Origin: Streptomyces erythrochromogenes
Lineage (GTDB): Bacteria; Actinomycetota; Actinomycetes; Streptomycetales; Streptomycetaceae
Direction of reading: 5' to 3'
DNA length: 64,000 bases
NCBI RefSeq assembly: GCF_036170895.1
Contig: NZ_CP108036.1
Location: 6,359,501 to 6,423,500, forward strand
In this document: positions 1-6,061 of the stretch, piece by piece
Layout: every line of letters begins with the position of its first letter
Numbering within the stretch: the stretch's first letter is position 1
Notes under the pieces: generated by a model
Seen by the model: only the letters and a program-made list of their open reading frames with translations
Told to the model about the DNA's origin: nothing
The model's database searches: none
Position numbers and translations under genes: made by a program

Positions 1-73
1 TGCCGCCCTTGTACGAGTAGAAGGTGACGATGCGCCCGTCACGGCCGTCCCTGGTGTCACGACTCGCTGTCAT
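1..73 (-). CDS. fxsT: FxsT, TPR/P-loop protein of the FxSxx-COOH system (5' end only)
   Basis: Only the first 24 codons lie in the window; the gene runs off the left edge. The ATG at 73 sits about 5 nt behind a GGGGGA ribosome site and overlaps the end of fxsC by 17 bp. The peptide reads MTASRDTRDGRDGRIVTFYS followed by YKGG. The IVTFYSYKGG stretch is the beginning of a ParA/MinD-like P-loop (KGGxGRT), which opens the large tetratricopeptide protein FxsT in Streptomyces fxs clusters. Its position directly after fxsC fits that assignment. Its role in those clusters is unknown. The call rests on the short peptide plus gene order. Confidence 0.72.
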   Translation of the reverse strand, partial: MTASRDTRDGRDGRIVTFYSYKGG

Positions 74-1469
74 CCGCGTCCCCCCGGTCGGTGTCGTTGC
101 TGTCGTTGCCGTCGTTGTGGCCGCCGAACGTGTCGGGCGGGAAGGGCGCCCGCGGCGGGGCCGGAGGCCCGCTCATCCCCATCGGCCCGAGCAGCCGCGG
201 GCGTTCGGTGTGGGTGTTGCCGGCCGGCAGGTACACCTGGGCGTGTCTGAGGAACTGCTGCGCCGCGGCCTCGACCACCTGCGGCAGGATCTGTCCGAGG
301 GTCTCCATGTTGGCCACCCCGTTGGCGGCGGCCCGGCAGGCGGCCCGGCCCTGGCCCATCTTGACGGGAAGGGTCTCCTCCAGCCGCCGCGCCAGCTCGA
401 TCTCCTTCGCGCGGCTCTGGTGGTCGTAGCGGTTCCACGGCACCACGACGTTGACCCACGGGCGGGACTCCTGGTCGAAGGCGGCCAGTCGCTGGCGGCG
501 GTGCTCGTCCTCCACCACCCAGCGGTCGACGATCAGGATCTCCGGCCGGGTCGGCGGCTGCTTGCTGTCGTAGTGCCCGGCCTCGTCGTCGAAGGAGCCG
601 ATGCTGGTCTGGTAGTTGAGGTTCTTGACCAGGTCCTCGGCGACGTAGGCGATGGGCCGCTGGGCCACCGGGTGGTACGGGTTCCACTCCAGCGCGTTGT
701 CCCCGTAGTACTCGGGGCTGCGCCCGTCCGGCAGGTCGTGCCGGGAGGCGGCGGCCACGGTCACGTGCAGGGTGCGGGCGGGGCTGCTGCCCGTGGGGCC
801 GAAGGCGCTCGGCACCCCGCGGTAGTCCAGCGGGCGGACGGGTTCGAGGCGGACGGTCTCGGCGACCCGGACGATGCGCTTGGCGAGCTCGTACACCGCC
901 CGCTCGTACTGCTCGGCGTAACCGCGCAGTTTGATCAGCCCGTACAGCCCGTCGGTGACGTAGCGCTCGCCGAAGGTGTTGTGGTTGAACTGCAACCGCT
1001 CCGCGGGTCCGGGCAGTTGCGATGGCGGGACCGGCACCCATAACGCGGGCACGATGGCCTCGGCCGGCTGGTTGCTCAGGGCCCCCTGGTGGATCGCCCG
1101 CTGCGCGAAGGCGTACCACTCCTTGCCGCACATCTCACTGGCGAAGTACCGCGGTGAGAACAACGGGACGAAGACCCGGCAGGTGGCGAGCGCCGCCCCG
1201 AGCCGCTCCGACCAGCCCTCGCCGCTGCGTATCTCCCGGTCCATGAAGCCGGCCTCGGCTCCGGCGGGCAGATCCGTCAGCGCCATGACATGACTGCAGA
1301 GATCGCGGAACAGGCGCTCCACCCACATGTCGGGATCGGGCCCCCCGGCCCCGAACCTCGGTGTATGCGCATAACTGAGAAAAAAATACGGCTGCACTGA
1401 TGCGGGCACACGCCCCCCGTCCCGAAGATGCGAGCGAAGAAACATCATTCCGGAGCTGCTTCGCCACAT
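57..1469 (-). CDS. fxsC: FxsC, TIR-like protein of the FxSxx-COOH system
   Basis: A 470-residue soluble protein. Its N-terminus has the TIR-like signature PYFFLSYA (about residues 27-34), followed by GFMDREIRSGEGW and SPRYFASEMCGKEW near residue 117. The Glu in GKEW is where TIR enzymes carry their catalytic glutamate, but NADase activity is inference only. The middle contains the FxsC-type region, with RPEILIVDRWVVED and VVVPWNRYD segments; the C-terminus is Pro/Gly/Asp-rich and probably disordered. The ATG at 1469 has GAGGGG abutting it; a GTG at 1409, six codons before PYFF, is an equally plausible start. The first codons are unusually AT-rich (runs of TTT). It overlaps fxsT and lies 20 bp after the AAC(3)-like gene, so it is probably cotranscribed with the maturase. 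Confidence 0.85.
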   Translation of the reverse strand: MWRSSSGMMFLRSHLRDGGRVPASVQPYFFLSYAHTPRFGAGGPDPDMWVERLFRDLCSHVMALTDLPAGAEAGFMDREIRSGEGWSERLGAALATCRVFVPLFSPRYFASEMCGKEWYAFAQRAIHQGALSNQPAEAIVPALWVPVPPSQLPGPAERLQFNHNTFGERYVTDGLYGLIKLRGYAEQYERAVYELAKRIVRVAETVRLEPVRPLDYRGVPSAFGPTGSSPARTLHVTVAAASRHDLPDGRSPEYYGDNALEWNPYHPVAQRPIAYVAEDLVKNLNYQTSIGSFDDEAGHYDSKQPPTRPEILIVDRWVVEDEHRRQRLAAFDQESRPWVNVVVPWNRYDHQSRAKEIELARRLEETLPVKMGQGRAACRAAANGVANMETLGQILPQVVEAAAQQFLRHAQVYLPAGNTHTERPRLLGPMGMSGPPAPPRAPFPPDTFGGHNDGNDSNDTDRGDADDSES

Positions 1470-1488
1470 CCCCTCATCGTTCAGTCAA

Positions 1489-2349
1489 TCAACATCGGTT
1501 TTCGGTCATCCACTCAAGGGCGTGGTCGACGGCTTCCGGGACGGAGAAGAGCATGGTCGACGCCCCTCCGACCCGCCCCCTGCGCACCCGCGAATCCGGA
1601 AACGCCCTGCCGATCTCCGCGAAATCGCCGTCATCCAGCGTGACGTCCTCGTATGCGGTCCACTCCCCCTCCTGGCGGGACCCCTGGTGCCCCTCCGGAA
1701 GGTTCACCTTCACCACACACTCGTACATGCGCAAGGGGGGCTTCGGAATTCGATACTCCGCGAGATGGAAAGCGGTGCAGACGGAAAACCCCACATTGAT
1801 CATGAGTACCTGTCCGCCCTCCCAGCACAGCTTTCCCAGGGGCGACTCCTCACCCAGGTGGCTTTCGAGGCGGTGCCCGCTGCAGAGCCGCTCCGCGTCC
1901 GCGCCGAGCGCGGCGAAGGAGGTCTGCGGATGGGAGCTGCGCGCGGCGCCCGGCGCGGTGCGGACGGCCTCCGCCAGGGAGCCCATGCCCTGGCTGGGGG
2001 TGCTCGCCGGGTCGAAGGCGGGCATCCGGTCGCGGAAGGCCCGCACCTCGGCCTCGTCCATACCGGCGATCCGCTCCAGATGGGCGCTGGAGGTCCTGGA
2101 GTTCTCCGGGGTGAACGCGGGCACCACCAGGGTGCCGCGCGGGCCCAGGACGCCCGTCAGGGCGTCGCGCAGCTGCTCCGCGCGCAGCCCGGTCCCGCGC
2201 AGGGAGGCGTGCACCATGAGCCGCATCCCCGGCCGTACGCCGAGCAACCGCAGCTGCACCGCGAGCTGGAGGGTGCCGGCGGCGCGGCGGCCCCGGCCCG
2301 GGCCCGCCGGTGAAGGGGCCGGGGCGGGGGAGTGGGAGTGGGCGCTCAC
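1489..2349 (-). CDS. AAC(3)-family N-acetyltransferase in the fxs cluster
   Basis: A 286-residue protein of the aminoglycoside 3-N-acetyltransferase fold. LVHASLRGTGL-type sequence near residue 40 (here LMVHASLRGTGL), TLVVPAFTPENS, the FDPASTPSQGMGSLAEA block, and SSHPQTSFAALG are typical of the antibiotic_NAT family. GTG at 2349 overlaps the fxsB stop as GTGA, giving tight translational coupling, so it belongs to the RiPP operon. The family transfers acetyl from acetyl-CoA to an amine. Within an fxs operon the natural guess is acetylation of the modified peptide, or self-protection, rather than aminoglycoside resistance; neither can be read from sequence. The His- and Pro-rich first 20 residues (SAHSHSPAPAPSPAGPGRG) look unstructured. 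Confidence 0.85.
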   Translation of the reverse strand: MSAHSHSPAPAPSPAGPGRGRRAAGTLQLAVQLRLLGVRPGMRLMVHASLRGTGLRAEQLRDALTGVLGPRGTLVVPAFTPENSRTSSAHLERIAGMDEAEVRAFRDRMPAFDPASTPSQGMGSLAEAVRTAPGAARSSHPQTSFAALGADAERLCSGHRLESHLGEESPLGKLCWEGGQVLMINVGFSVCTAFHLAEYRIPKPPLRMYECVVKVNLPEGHQGSRQEGEWTAYEDVTLDDGDFAEIGRAFPDSRVRRGRVGGASTMLFSVPEAVDHALEWMTENRC

Positions 2350-4598
2350 GCGTCGACCGCCTTCAGTTCGTAGCGCAGCTCCGCCACCAGCCGCTTGCCG
2401 GTGACCGTCAGCTCGGCCGCGGCCGAGAGCCGCTCCAGGGCCTCGTGGATGCGGTCCGAGCCGCCCGGCTCGGGGCCCGCCGTCGCCCGCCGGTACGCCT
2501 CCACCGCCACCCGCTCGTGCACGTCGGCCAGCAGCCGCGACACGGGCACCGGGCGGGACCGCCACGGCGACCGGTGCTGCCACTCCCCGTCCAGCGCGTA
2601 CAGGTCGGTCACCTCGGTCAGGGCCCGCAGCCGGGTCCGCCGCCGCCCGGTCAGCAGCGCGAGCGCGGTCTCCCGAACGCCCGCCGCGTACGGCACCCCG
2701 AGCGCCCCCGGGCCGTGCCGGCCCGCCTCGCCCCAGCCGCCGGCCCGCGGGCCGCCCGCGAGCGGGGTCAGCGTGGTCAGCCCGGTCGCCGCCGCCCGGG
2801 CGAACCCGGGCACCGCCTTGTGCAGCAGCGCCCAGGCCCGGTCGAGCCGGCCCCGCCACTCCTCGGTCTCGCCGGAGCCGAGCCGGAGCCTGGGCGGGCG
2901 GGGGAAGCAGTTGCGGTACGGGTCGAGGTCCTCCAGCGCCACCGGCGCCGCGTCCGGGCCGGGCGACCAGGTGCGTACGGGCTGCCAGCGGGCGTCGCCC
3001 GCCGCCGGCCCGAAGCGGTGCTCGGAGCGGCCGTCCCGGGCGACGTAGCCGTCGTCGGTGACGTGCAGGGAGGCCCGGCCCTCCGTACCCGGCTCCCCGA
3101 GCCGCAGCAGTCCGAGCGTCGGCAGGTACACCTCACCGTCCCGGTAGGCCACCTCGGCCGGCAGGTCCAGCCCGCCGCGCAGCACGGCCGCGGCGGCCAG
3201 CGCGGTGAGCCTGCGGGCCGCCTCCGCACCCCCGGGCAGGCCTTCGCGCGCGGCGTCCAGGGCGGCCAGCACCCAGGTCCGGGTGAACGGGTGGTCCAGT
3301 ACGGCGTCCAGAGCGTCGGCGCCCGCCTGCCCGGCCCGCTCCACGGCGGCCACCAGCTCCCAGGCGTGCGCCCAGTCGGGGTCGCCGGCCAGGTCCGCGT
3401 TCAGCCGGGCCAGCAGGATCCGGGTCAGCTCCTCCTGGGAGCGGGCCAGTTCGGCCGGGTCGGACAGCTGTGGAGCGGTCTCCCGGGACGCCGTGCGGCC
3501 CTCGACCCCGTCCACCAGTTCGCGCAGGTCGGTGCAGTACACGGAGGGGTTGTCGAAGCCGTTGCGGTCTCGGTAGCGGTGGGTGTAGAGCCCGCCCCCG
3601 CACGAGCGTACGACGGGGCAGCGGCGGCACGAGTCGCTGACGCCGGCCAGGCCCAGCTGCCGGGCGCGGACCCCGGGATGGGCGGCGACCCGGTCGAATG
3701 CGTGGTCGAAGACGTTGAACCCGGTGGCCGCCGCCCCCTCGAAGGCGCTCTTGAGGGAGTCCACCTGCTCCAGGGTGCCGTCGGTCTCGACGACGACGAG
3801 GTCGGTGGGCGCGAGGCCGAGCGATTCGGTGAGGCTGGGTCCGCCGCGCAGCGTGGACAGGACGGACTCGAAGAGCCGTACGGGTACCGGGCGGCCCAGC
3901 CGCTCCCAGTGGTCGAAGATCCTCAGGAGCCAGCGGGCGTACGCGTCCGGGGCGTCGTCGGGCCGGACGGGCGGCGTCTCCCAGGTGGCGTGCGGGAGGA
4001 GGAAGTCCACGCGCGGGGGCTCTAGTTCGACGAGGGCGTCGAGCACGGCGACGGGGTCGTTGGCCACGTCCACGGTGCAGAGCAGACCCTGGTAGAGGTG
4101 GCGGTAGGGCGCGGAGCGCAGCAGCGCGACGGCCGCGAGGACCAGCGGATGGCTCGTACGGCCGTCCGCGAAGCGGCGGTGGCGGTCGTTGGCGGCGCGG
4201 TCCCCGTCGAGGGAGATGCCGACCCGGACGCCGAACTCGGCGAAGAGGTCGAGGTAACGCGTGCTGAGCTGGAGCCCGTTGGTGTGGATCCGCAGGTCGA
4301 GGGTGGCGATCCCGGTGAGCGCCCGGCTGAACTCCTCGCAGACGAGTCGGAGCCGGGCCGTGCCCGCCAACAGGGGTTCCCCTCCGTGGAGAATCACCGT
4401 GACGGAGGGGAGTGCATGGTCACGGGCATGTTCGGCGAGCCTGGACGCGGTCTGTGAAATAACCTCGGGGGAGATCACTTTCGGCCGGGCTCGCCAGCTC
4501 TGATCTGCATGTTCGTAGACGTAGCAATGATCACAAGCAAGATCGCATCTGCTGTGAACTTTCAGGACGATCTCGCGAAATGCGATCAGGCCGGTCAT
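2346..4598 (-). CDS. fxsB: FxsB, radical SAM/SPASM cyclophane-forming peptide maturase
   Basis: A 750-residue maturase. The radical SAM cluster motif CDLACDHC (Cys18, 22, 25) is followed by HGGEPLL. A SPASM-type region around residue 330 reads CRRCPVVRSCGGG. FxsB enzymes join the Phe ring of the FxS motif to a beta carbon in the precursor (established for the family). The C-terminal half resembles the HExxH metallohydrolase/beta-hydroxylase extension fused to such enzymes, ending in YRRA...LVAELRYELKA. Where HExxH would sit this protein reads LLTGRRRTRL (residues 648-657), so the extension is probably non-catalytic, as in the 'inactivated extension' FxsB form. ATG at 4598 has GGCGGA just upstream and lies 28 bp after fxsA; the 3' end overlaps the acetyltransferase start. 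Confidence 0.92.
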   Translation of the reverse strand: MTGLIAFREIVLKVHSRCDLACDHCYVYEHADQSWRARPKVISPEVISQTASRLAEHARDHALPSVTVILHGGEPLLAGTARLRLVCEEFSRALTGIATLDLRIHTNGLQLSTRYLDLFAEFGVRVGISLDGDRAANDRHRRFADGRTSHPLVLAAVALLRSAPYRHLYQGLLCTVDVANDPVAVLDALVELEPPRVDFLLPHATWETPPVRPDDAPDAYARWLLRIFDHWERLGRPVPVRLFESVLSTLRGGPSLTESLGLAPTDLVVVETDGTLEQVDSLKSAFEGAAATGFNVFDHAFDRVAAHPGVRARQLGLAGVSDSCRRCPVVRSCGGGLYTHRYRDRNGFDNPSVYCTDLRELVDGVEGRTASRETAPQLSDPAELARSQEELTRILLARLNADLAGDPDWAHAWELVAAVERAGQAGADALDAVLDHPFTRTWVLAALDAAREGLPGGAEAARRLTALAAAAVLRGGLDLPAEVAYRDGEVYLPTLGLLRLGEPGTEGRASLHVTDDGYVARDGRSEHRFGPAAGDARWQPVRTWSPGPDAAPVALEDLDPYRNCFPRPPRLRLGSGETEEWRGRLDRAWALLHKAVPGFARAAATGLTTLTPLAGGPRAGGWGEAGRHGPGALGVPYAAGVRETALALLTGRRRTRLRALTEVTDLYALDGEWQHRSPWRSRPVPVSRLLADVHERVAVEAYRRATAGPEPGGSDRIHEALERLSAAAELTVTGKRLVAELRYELKAVDA

Positions 4599-4626
4599 TC
4601 CGCCAGTCTAGAGCTCTCGCTCCGCC

Positions 4627-4827
4627 TCAGAGTGCGGAGTTGAAGATCGGTGCCTGAACCGGACGGCCGGATTCAGTCGGGAGCACGCGACCGAGCGTCG
4701 CGGCCGCGGACGCGGTTTCGACGTCGATCTTGGTGAGGGGGACCCGGCGGGCCTTGACCGTGCTGGTCGCGGGGGTTGCGGAAGTGTTCACGACACCGTC
4801 CTCGGGGAAGCCATATGGAATGGGCAT
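4627..4827 (-). CDS. fxsA: FxsA, FxSxx-COOH RiPP precursor peptide
   Basis: A 66-residue peptide that ends PIFNSAL. The terminal five residues FNSAL match the defining F-x-S-x-x-COOH core exactly. The preceding part (VPLTKIDVETASAAATLGRV and on through LPTESGRPVQA) is the expected leader. It is immediately followed by the radical SAM maturase fxsB, the normal arrangement. By analogy with characterised Fxs systems the Phe is cross-linked within the F-N-S tripeptide to a strained three-residue cyclophane; whether a fragment is then released is not known from sequence. No clear Shine-Dalgarno precedes ATG 4827, so the transcript may have a very short leader, or the annotated start may be slightly off. 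Short ORF, but context makes it secure. Confidence 0.9.
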   Translation of the reverse strand: MPIPYGFPEDGVVNTSATPATSTVKARRVPLTKIDVETASAAATLGRVLPTESGRPVQAPIFNSAL

Positions 4828-5158
4828 GTGAATGACAACAGCGACGCGCTGCCGTCAAGCGTGGACTTTACTCGGCCACACCCCATTGGCAACCGAGACA
4901 TGACGCCTGGTCAACCGTTCTATAGCGAGCGCGGCGTATTTCCCGAGGTGGCTTATTCGGCCGTTCGCCGGACGGCAAGATCCATTTCTCCCGGCGTCGC
5001 CCCGGACGCGCTGCCGGGGCCGCGCCGGGGGCGGTCCAGGGGCGGCCGGGGGACGGTCCGGCCGGACGGGACGGCCGCTGCCCCGGAGACCGGCCCGCGC
5101 CCCTGGCCGGGATGCTCTCCGACGCTCGCCGAGGGGGCTCCGGGAGCCTGAACGGCCG
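4828..5158. other. Gene-free 331-bp upstream region of the fxs operon
   Basis: No convincing gene is present. Bases 4840-4985 are noticeably AT-richer than the surroundings, as expected for the fxsA promoter. The half next to the alpha/beta hydrolase end (5000-5110) is extremely GC-rich with short palindromes such as TCCGGCCGGA, and may act as a transcription barrier between the hydrolase and the fxs operon. No operator could be recognised. Confidence 0.5.
4865..4892 (-). promoter_or_regulatory. Candidate promoter of fxsA
   Basis: Read on the minus strand, TTGCCA (4892-4887) and TAAAGT (4870-4865) are separated by 16 nt. They would be the -35 and -10 boxes of a housekeeping promoter, with a start about 30 nt before the fxsA ATG. 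Each box matches the consensus at four of six positions and the DNA here is AT-richer than average. Prediction only. Confidence 0.35.
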
Positions 5159-6061
5159 CTACGCGGGCTGCTGTTCGCTGAGCGGCGGCGTCGGGAGGTC
5201 GCGCAGCAGCCAGTTCAGCACGTCGGGCAGCGCGCGCAGGGCCGCGAAGTGGGCGGCGGCCGGCTCGATCGTGGTGGTGGCCCCCGGGATCCGGCGCGCG
5301 AGCCAGCGGGAGTGGCCCACGGGGGAGAACACGTCGAGCTCCCCGTGCCAGATCAGCACCGGGCAGCGGATGTCGGCCGGGTCGAAGCCCCAGGGGCGGC
5401 TGAAGGCGAGGACGTCGTCGATCCAGCCGTAGGCCGAATGGCGCAGCCCCTCGCGGTAGTTCCGCAGCAGCATCGACCGCAGCCCGGCGTCCGAGACGAT
5501 CATGCGGTCGTTGGCGGTCAGTTCCCGGCGCAGCTCGTCCAGCAGCCGCCCCGGGTCCTTGCGGATGCCGGCGGCGCGCGGGATCAGCCGGGCGGCCAGT
5601 TCCTCGGGGTCGGTGGAGGCGGTGGTGTACTCCCGGACGTTCGACGCGGCCATTCCGGCGAACCAGTCCAGGTCCTCCGCGTCCCGGGGGGCCAGTCCGA
5701 CCATCGCCGCGGTGCGGCTGACCCGATCCGGCAGCAGGGCGGCGCAGGCCAGGGCGCCGGCGGCGCCTCCGGAACGGCCCGCCACCGCGAACCTGTCCAG
5801 ACCGAGGGAGTCGGCCACGGCGGCCACGTCGTGGGCCACGTCGGCGACGGTGCGGCCCGGGTGCCGGTCGGAGCCGCCGTAGCCGGGTCTGTCGTAGGCG
5901 ATGAGCTGCATCCGGCGCTGGTAGAGGACCATGCCCCGGGGGGCCGGGCCCAGGCGGCTGCCGGGCATGCCGTGGAGCAGGAAGACGGGCTTGCCGTCCG
6001 GATCGCCCCAGCGCTCCACGGTCAGAGCGCGCCCGTCCGCTGTGCGCACCTGATGGCGCAC
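5159..6061 (-). CDS. Alpha/beta hydrolase
   Basis: A 300-residue cytoplasmic alpha/beta-hydrolase fold protein. Strand and oxyanion sequence KPVFLLHGMPGSR is near residue 28. The nucleophile elbow GRSGGAAG carries the catalytic Ser, the acid is the Asp of WHGELD, and the His is in PAAAHFAAL, so the triad is complete. YDRPGYGGSD is typical of proline-iminopeptidase/haloperoxidase-like members. Substrate is unknown. GTG at 6061 follows GGGAGG with good spacing. It stands alone between the fxs operon and a TetR gene. No signal peptide. Confidence 0.85.
   Translation of the reverse strand: MRHQVRTADGRALTVERWGDPDGKPVFLLHGMPGSRLGPAPRGMVLYQRRMQLIAYDRPGYGGSDRHPGRTVADVAHDVAAVADSLGLDRFAVAGRSGGAAGALACAALLPDRVSRTAAMVGLAPRDAEDLDWFAGMAASNVREYTTASTDPEELAARLIPRAAGIRKDPGRLLDELRRELTANDRMIVSDAGLRSMLLRNYREGLRHSAYGWIDDVLAFSRPWGFDPADIRCPVLIWHGELDVFSPVGHSRWLARRIPGATTTIEPAAAHFAALRALPDVLNWLLRDLPTPPLSEQQPA

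Follow-up and report, generated by a model that had tools for sequence, protein, structure and literature searches.

The closest described relatives of the locus reported here are the FxSxx-COOH, or FxsABCT, systems. Their four core families are named in NCBIfam (TIGR04268, TIGR04269, NF040587, NF040588, TIGR04276 and NF040586), and the parts of a 2020 eLife paper considered here (PMC7159879) present the FxSxx core as a stand-alone peptide-processing conflict system, with an AP-ATPase-TPR protein that carries an inactive MinD/ParA domain, and predict for it a peptide toxin or signal. Since the families are named and the system has been described, the FxsABCT core is already known. The same parts of PMC7159879 connect SLATT with GAP1 GTPase systems and predict that it forms a pore responsive to nucleotide signals, and the portions of PMC9503650 considered here report neighboring TIR and SLATT genes in phages, the SLATT protein being predicted to act as an effector regulated by an ADP-ribose (ADPr) derivative. 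We analyzed the window, a 64,000-nucleotide (nt) stretch of the 8.6 Mb genome of Streptomyces erythrochromogenes (G000:C1:6359501-6423500), whose left end holds the first part of an fxs cassette.

The four core genes of this cassette score over the curated cut-offs, and their domains are those described for FxsABCT in the parts of PMC7159879 considered, including the inactive-looking ParA/MinD domain on the AP-ATPase. The cassette differs in that those parts of the paper make no connection between FxSxx and either SLATT or an AAC(3)-like partner, and in that a HExxH-type domain is fused, with its motif lost. With the TIR-SLATT pairs of firmicute phages, as the considered portions of PMC9503650 present them, it shares a TIR gene and a two-transmembrane (2TM) SLATT gene as neighbors, but it adds a switch of the signal transduction ATPases with numerous domains (STAND) class and a peptide of the ribosomally synthesized and post-translationally modified (RiPP) type with its enzymes. 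No literature linking SLATT or AAC(3) to FxSxx was found among the matches listed, from a coverage that leaves out most subscription journals. As judged from the comparisons below, what is added to the known core would be a SLATT effector, an acetyltransferase supplied in cis or in trans, a split between a TIR enzyme and a TIR adaptor, and an FxsC module shared with VMAP-type loci. We favor, at a probability of roughly 0.55, a model in which the locus is a conflict cassette resembling NOD-like receptors (NLRs), where modified FxsA is read by FxsT and a nicotinamide adenine dinucleotide (NAD) product made by FxsC opens SLATT.

The genes were identified from reading frames, translations and curated hidden Markov models (HMMs), and on these grounds we regard the identities of the cassette genes as certain. 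In window positions, except for the whole fxsT gene, they are:

4627..4791, minus strand: fxsA, FxSxx-COOH precursor; 54 residues from the GTG at 4791, or 66 from the ATG at 4827
2346..4598, minus strand: fxsBH, radical S-adenosylmethionine (SAM)/SPASM cyclophane-type maturase with a HExxH-hydroxylase-like domain lacking HExxH; 750 residues
1489..2349, minus strand: AAC(3)-fold N-acetyltransferase; 286 residues, GTG start
57..1469, minus strand: fxsC, TIR domain and C-terminal alpha/beta domain; the true start is possibly internal
1..73, minus strand: fxsT, initial 24 codons, ATG at 73; the remainder lies left of the window
L002:15572-19573, minus strand: fxsT, whole gene; 1333 residues with ParA-like KGGTGR, TIR_2, NB-ARC, DUF7779 and TPR
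5159..6061, minus strand: alpha/beta hydrolase, right flank of the cassette site and not a member

FxsA scored 29.3 bits against TIGR04268 (cut-off 28) and ends in FNSAL. FxsBH reached 583 bits against TIGR04269 (cut-off 370) and 416 against NF040587, the model for the form that has lost HExxH (cut-off 225), the AAC(3)-fold protein 233 bits against PF02522 (Antibiotic_NAT, cut-off 25), FxsC 237 bits against NF040588 (cut-off 130) and 211 against TIGR04276 (cut-off 55), and FxsT 1056 bits against NF040586 (cut-off 300). By FxsC, the closest named relatives are Streptomyces yangpuensis, S. virginiae and S. amritsarensis, at 98-99% identity (among the best 80 of 400). A preliminary description of this DNA had named fxsA, the radical SAM maturase, the AAC(3)-fold gene, fxsC and the start of fxsT as tightly packed, and the frames, HMM matches and spacing bear this out: 28 nt separate fxsA from fxsB and 19 nt AAC(3) from fxsC, while fxsB and AAC(3) overlap by 4 nt and fxsC and fxsT by 17 nt. 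That description called the operon complete, which is right for four genes; because the bulk of fxsT and the SLATT gene lie left of the edge, the operon within the window is incomplete. Its expectation that fxsT would continue to the left was correct, the whole gene being found beyond the edge, and so was the order fxsB-AAC(3)-fxsC that it anticipated in relatives. In 80 named Streptomyces-type loci, obtained with an FxsC profile as the best 80 of 400 relatives, the order is B-AAC-C-T in 33 and B-C-T in 43, and the remaining four are contigs without the fxsB radical SAM domain (AAC-C-T in two, C-T in two); B-(AAC)-C-T thus holds in 76/76 loci with that domain, more than expected by chance. Across the class, 40 further loci together with the window cover 44 of the 45 places over the FxsC cut-off in a sample of 394 genomes. 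Of the 40, 23 carry B, C and T in that order on one strand, B is divergent in 11, two are C-T-B forms and four have FxsC without fxsB.

The favored mechanism would run as follows. FxsBH would cross-link the Phe and Ser of the FNSAL tail of FxsA into a cyclophane, a chemistry that we take from the NCBIfam model names and from general background, and the AAC(3)-like enzyme would acetylate the peptide, most likely on a freed alpha-amine. Because no operon gene is a transporter, the modified peptide would remain inside the cell, where FxsT, as an NLR-like NB-ARC/TPR switch, would read it as a lock or as a trigger. Active FxsT would gather FxsC through its own catalytically degenerate TIR domain; FxsC would hydrolyze or cyclize NAD; and the product, or the loss of NAD itself, would open the SLATT membrane effector and bring about dormancy or death of the compartment. 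A conflict mechanism of this NLR-like kind is probable from the sequences, in which putative active-site residues are retained in FxsB, AAC(3), FxsC and the FxsT NB-ARC and motifs are altered in the TIR and ParA parts of FxsT. The preliminary description had leaned toward signaling or conflict, and the NB-ARC/TPR architecture of FxsT, the FxsC Glu, the SLATT gene and the plasmid fusions of the FxsC module give that leaning sequence support. The fullest statement of the idea, which we regard as rather doubtful in its entirety, is that cyclophane FxsA, cross-linked by FxsBH and acetylated by an AAC(3)-fold enzyme acting in cis or in trans, is a dedicated internal ligand that arms or locks the bacterial NLR FxsT, whose dead TIR gathers FxsC so that an NAD-derived signal opens a SLATT channel. 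To our knowledge, FxsA would then be the first RiPP to act as a co-factor of an immune-type switch and not as a secreted product. The seldom connected fields of RiPP chemistry and NLR/TIR immunity would be joined, and the purpose of FxSxx peptides would become directly testable in Streptomyces; the model also names missing parts (the membrane effector and the acetyltransferase in cis or trans) and predicts the enzyme role for one TIR and the adaptor role for the other.

The SLATT membrane-effector gene is, on sequence grounds, a member of the Streptomyces cassette. It lies 64 nt past the fxsT stop on the same strand and encodes 302 residues with SLATT_3 and SLATT_1, which Pfam names as 2TM effector domains; the protein is over cut-off for PF18184 and PF18181 (128 and 127 bits) and for NF033610 and NF033634 (179 and 90 bits). 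A homologue is present at the fxs locus in 78/80 loci, directly after fxsT in 25 and divergent upstream of fxsA in 53, the two misses (L158 and L160) being contigs cut upstream. In the class sample, SLATT_1 is over cut-off in 30/394 genomes at 32 places, 17 of which are within 15 kb of fxsC or fxsB. When only the 35 FxsC-positive genomes are considered, all 15 SLATT_1 places have a gene above the FxsC cut-off within 10 kb: fxs loci account for 14, and the other (G182, L191) adjoins a TIR-NACHT gene with a TIR that passes the FxsC model. FxsC and SLATT_1 are associated both in the genus (both 12, FxsC only 2, SLATT only 3, neither 23; Fisher p 6e-6) and in the class (both 14, FxsC only 21, SLATT only 16, neither 343; p 7e-9), in tests that ignore kinship.

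The model would also divide labor between two TIR domains. FxsT is an NB-ARC/TPR STAND protein by its domains, with the Walker A Lys and the Walker B Asp of NB-ARC kept in 113/113 sequences and GR instead of GK in the ParA-like P-loop in the same 113. Glu117 of FxsC falls within SPRYFASEMCGKEW, in the motif SxxYxxSxxCxxE, and is Glu in 80/80 GTDB loci, in 41/41 of the class set (40 loci and the window) and in 121/121 proteins, counting the best FxsC copy of each locus. Matches of the FxsC profile to solved structures are weak, and 16 of the 18 are TIR proteins, one of these an unnamed chain that we take to be TIR; in them the FxsC Glu aligns on the Glu of the plant TIR motif 'WCLDEL', which we take to be the plant catalytic Glu. 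At the corresponding position FxsT has Val in 56, Leu in 34, Arg in 10, Ile in 4 and Glu in 1 of 113 sequences. The preceding FxsT position is Asp or Glu in 82/113, so the Glu count depends on the register, which is backed by a short hhalign match placing FxsC Glu117 on FxsT Val426. Because the Glu is kept in the best FxsC copies and found in 1/113 FxsT proteins, FxsC is a candidate TIR enzyme, and FxsT a candidate switch whose TIR resembles an adaptor. In the AlphaFold model of FxsC, only the C-terminal domain, which has a generic alpha/beta fold, is modeled with confidence. Tandem FxsC-like TIR genes occur in three loci (L044, L065 and L071), the weaker copy being without the Glu in two of them.

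An FxsA candidate was found in 76/76 of the loci that hold fxsB among the 80, with Leu at -36, Arg at -20, Arg at -12 and Leu at -1 invariant in all; F-5 and S-3 belonged to the search pattern. Several relatives (L112, L113 and L118) have Met at the position matching GTG 4791, so the 54-residue start is the more probable one. The CxxxCxxC cysteines of FxsB are conserved in 113/113. HExxH is missing from the matched segment in 80/80 loci (a few of these matches being partial), with TGRRR in its place in the window FxsBH, while several divergent loci retain HEFQH at the same position; because of this pattern, the C-terminal HExxH-hydroxylase-like domain of FxsBH has probably changed its role. 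The considered parts of PMC7159879 take the metallopeptidase-like gene as a peptidase, whereas a beta-hydroxylase is named by the NCBIfam model. The idea that losing HExxH accounts for the presence of AAC(3) is unsupported, all four combinations being seen. The genome of the window also encodes a second FxsB-type maturase far from the operon (G000:C1:2984182-2985276, 417 bits, 505-residue frame).

The preliminary description labeled the acetyltransferase AAC(3). The PF02522 fold stands, but the protein scores 152 bits against the general NCBIfam AAC_3 model (cut-off 270) and is below every NCBIfam AAC(3) cut-off, so that the label is a fold name, and aminoglycoside resistance is rejected on these scores. 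The best solved relative is FrbF; the fxs-linked protein shares with the FrbF/AAC(3) acyltransferase family its PF02522 membership and the FHLAEYR motif, with His195 and Glu198 kept in 47/47, and differs in that most fxs-linked copies sit on a branch separate from generic Streptomyces copies. If this enzyme acetylates FxsA, the new alpha-amine is the likelier site, since Lys is nearly absent from the tail; it occurs among the final 15 residues in just 3/76, which makes Lys acetylation unlikely. An apparent tie of AAC(3) to tails reading exactly FNSAL (33/33 with AAC(3), 24/43 without) was dropped, L039 having AAC(3) together with FQSAL.

The AAC(3) gene (ACETYLTRANSFERASE) lies between fxsB and fxsC in 33/33 of the loci holding both fxsB and AAC(3) among the 80, and in 10/11 AAC(3)-bearing class loci, L059 having it after a displaced fxsB. 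It is present in 35/80 operons and absent from 45, with at least five changes on the FxsT tree. Where the operon copy is missing, a trans copy at 213-254 bits was found in 39/40 fxs genomes, as compared with a second copy of this type in 1/10 genomes that already have one in the operon; a smaller, partly overlapping genome set gave 4/4 versus 0/5. The fxs-type enzyme is present in 0/26 fxs-negative genomes of the genus, where no match exceeds 169 bits and 12 genomes have a distant one. In trees, trans copies fall in one clade with most fxs-linked copies, apart from generic copies (support 96/91 with four trans rows, and 88 with 22 trans rows, two being dropped); L059 (from G199) and a copy in G191 that lies 15 kb away from fxsC are outside this branch. 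From these comparisons AAC(3) is probably, and not proven to be, a needed enzyme that is replaced in trans.

Several observations weigh against the mechanism proposed. On the side of catalysis, no TIR structure is matched by the FxsC profile at better than E 0.056, the AlphaFold model of FxsC is poor in its TIR half (predicted local distance difference test, pLDDT, of about 60), the hhalign match between the FxsC and FxsT TIRs is weak as well as short, and the second of the tandem FxsC copies has Gln in L071 and His in L044 in place of the Glu, which L065 keeps. No peptidase for FxsA was identified. The mutual exclusion of cis and trans AAC(3) comes down to three independent contrasts, of which on average 2.9 go in the expected direction (median p 0.25), and one genome has neither copy and one holds both. 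As for SLATT, 15 of its 32 class places are not near fxs, and SLATT_1 is missing in 21/35 FxsC-positive genomes (2/14 in the genus, 19/21 outside), so it is either specific to certain lineages or has a substitute in others. Within Streptomyces, much of the linkage is vertical inheritance at a single locus, and SLATT has stayed by the protease where clades differ by an inversion of the fxsA-T block, a single change on the FxsT tree (88 rows). This description replaces a reading in which SLATT had moved, for relative to the flanking protease and hydrolase it is fxsA-T that inverted and SLATT that is stationary.

The inversion beside a stationary SLATT, together with the 45/80 operons without AAC(3), is what would be seen if SLATT and AAC(3) were passengers of a conserved locus and stood outside the system. 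We consider this very improbable, as in other families and other arrangements (G299, G095, G191, G199, G241 and G163) SLATT_1 is again close to fxsB or fxsC, AAC(3) overlaps fxsB and recurs in trans as described, and SLATT and fxs-type AAC(3) are both absent from the two genomes with cassette-free sites, where no AAC(3) match of any kind was obtained.

Those two sites (L184 and L185) are from FxsC-negative genomes of the same genus; protease and hydrolase are adjacent there, with less than 1 kb between reading frames, and neither fxs nor SLATT was matched in the stretches. L186 is left out of this count. Since the flanks adjoin without fxs or SLATT, the cassette is present or absent there as a unit. 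An alpha/beta hydrolase homologue is in the fetched stretch of 77/80 loci and is retained at both cassette-free sites, as is the trypsin-like protease, so both were rejected as cassette members. The comparison describes a discardable, chromosomal cassette with the order fxsA-fxsBH-AAC(3)-fxsC-fxsT-SLATT. FxsC is over cut-off in 35/394 genomes of the class and in 14/40 of the genus, and this patchiness, the cassette-free sites and the FxsC relatives on plasmids are all usual for conflict modules. They speak against a developmental or homeostatic role in which the cassette would time programmed death or sporulation in Streptomyces outside of defense, a view that gains from the shared flanks in most of the 80 relatives, from mostly vertical inheritance and from the lack of any FxsC match in 50,697 phage records; we think this role unlikely.

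The NLR-like conflict reading also agrees with where else the FxsC module is found. Five plasmid records have FxsC matches, two of which cover 80% or more of the query. A Streptomyces plasmid (typed mobilizable) and a Kitasatospora plasmid each encode a large protein that has a SAV_2336 N-terminal-type domain and ends in the complete module (NF040588 and TIGR04276, over cut-off), FxsT-type TPRs lying in between in the Streptomyces protein. Each fusion adjoins a MoxR/AAA-type ATPase and a protein whose VMAP domain scores over cut-off and whose caspase match falls below it. By position, the fusions look like occupants of the vWA slot of the VMAP-MoxR-vWA systems treated in the considered parts of PMC7159879, although no vWA domain was matched in them with Pfam or NCBIfam. 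The window cassette appears to differ from those systems, with no VMAP, MoxR or vWA match in its genes or in the eight neighboring frames, to which that scan was confined.

The module's position beside conflict genes bears on the remaining alternative, that the locus makes a RiPP for secretion, as a signal or an antibiotic, and the immunity to go with it: FxsA would be exported, AAC(3) would provide self-resistance or cap the product, and FxsC and FxsT would do no more than regulate. A RiPP-type maturase next to an acetyltransferase from a family containing resistance enzymes would fit such a pathway, and the adjoining trypsin-like protease could process peptides, the invariant Arg at -12 and -20 being possible cleavage sites. 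The protease and hydrolase are, however, present also at cassette-free sites, AAC(3) is under all resistance-family cut-offs, and no transporter is among the operon genes, the part of the surroundings scanned for one. With the FxsC fusions added to this, we hold secretion to be distinctly unlikely, and retain the intracellular conflict reading.

Smaller variants on these themes were seen in passing. SLATT_1 stands beside a TIR-NACHT protein at L191:5050-7917 and beside a ParA-TIR protein at L189:8811-12212, without an fxsB match in either stretch; these are perhaps smaller TIR-STAND-SLATT cassettes. At L187 (G163:C12), in a genome without FxsC over cut-off, a short FxsB is followed directly by SLATT_1, and STAND/TPR genes accompany them. 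In another family, FxsC loci (L062:13985-19468) encode two additional proteins, one NB-ARC/TPR and one nSTAND1-TPR, both conserved in 10/10 compared loci. Finally, four entries (P0054, P0056, P0058 and P0059) are FxsC proteins of 792-811 residues, and in P0054 the FxsC module is preceded by a partial SAV_2336-type match that stays under cut-off.

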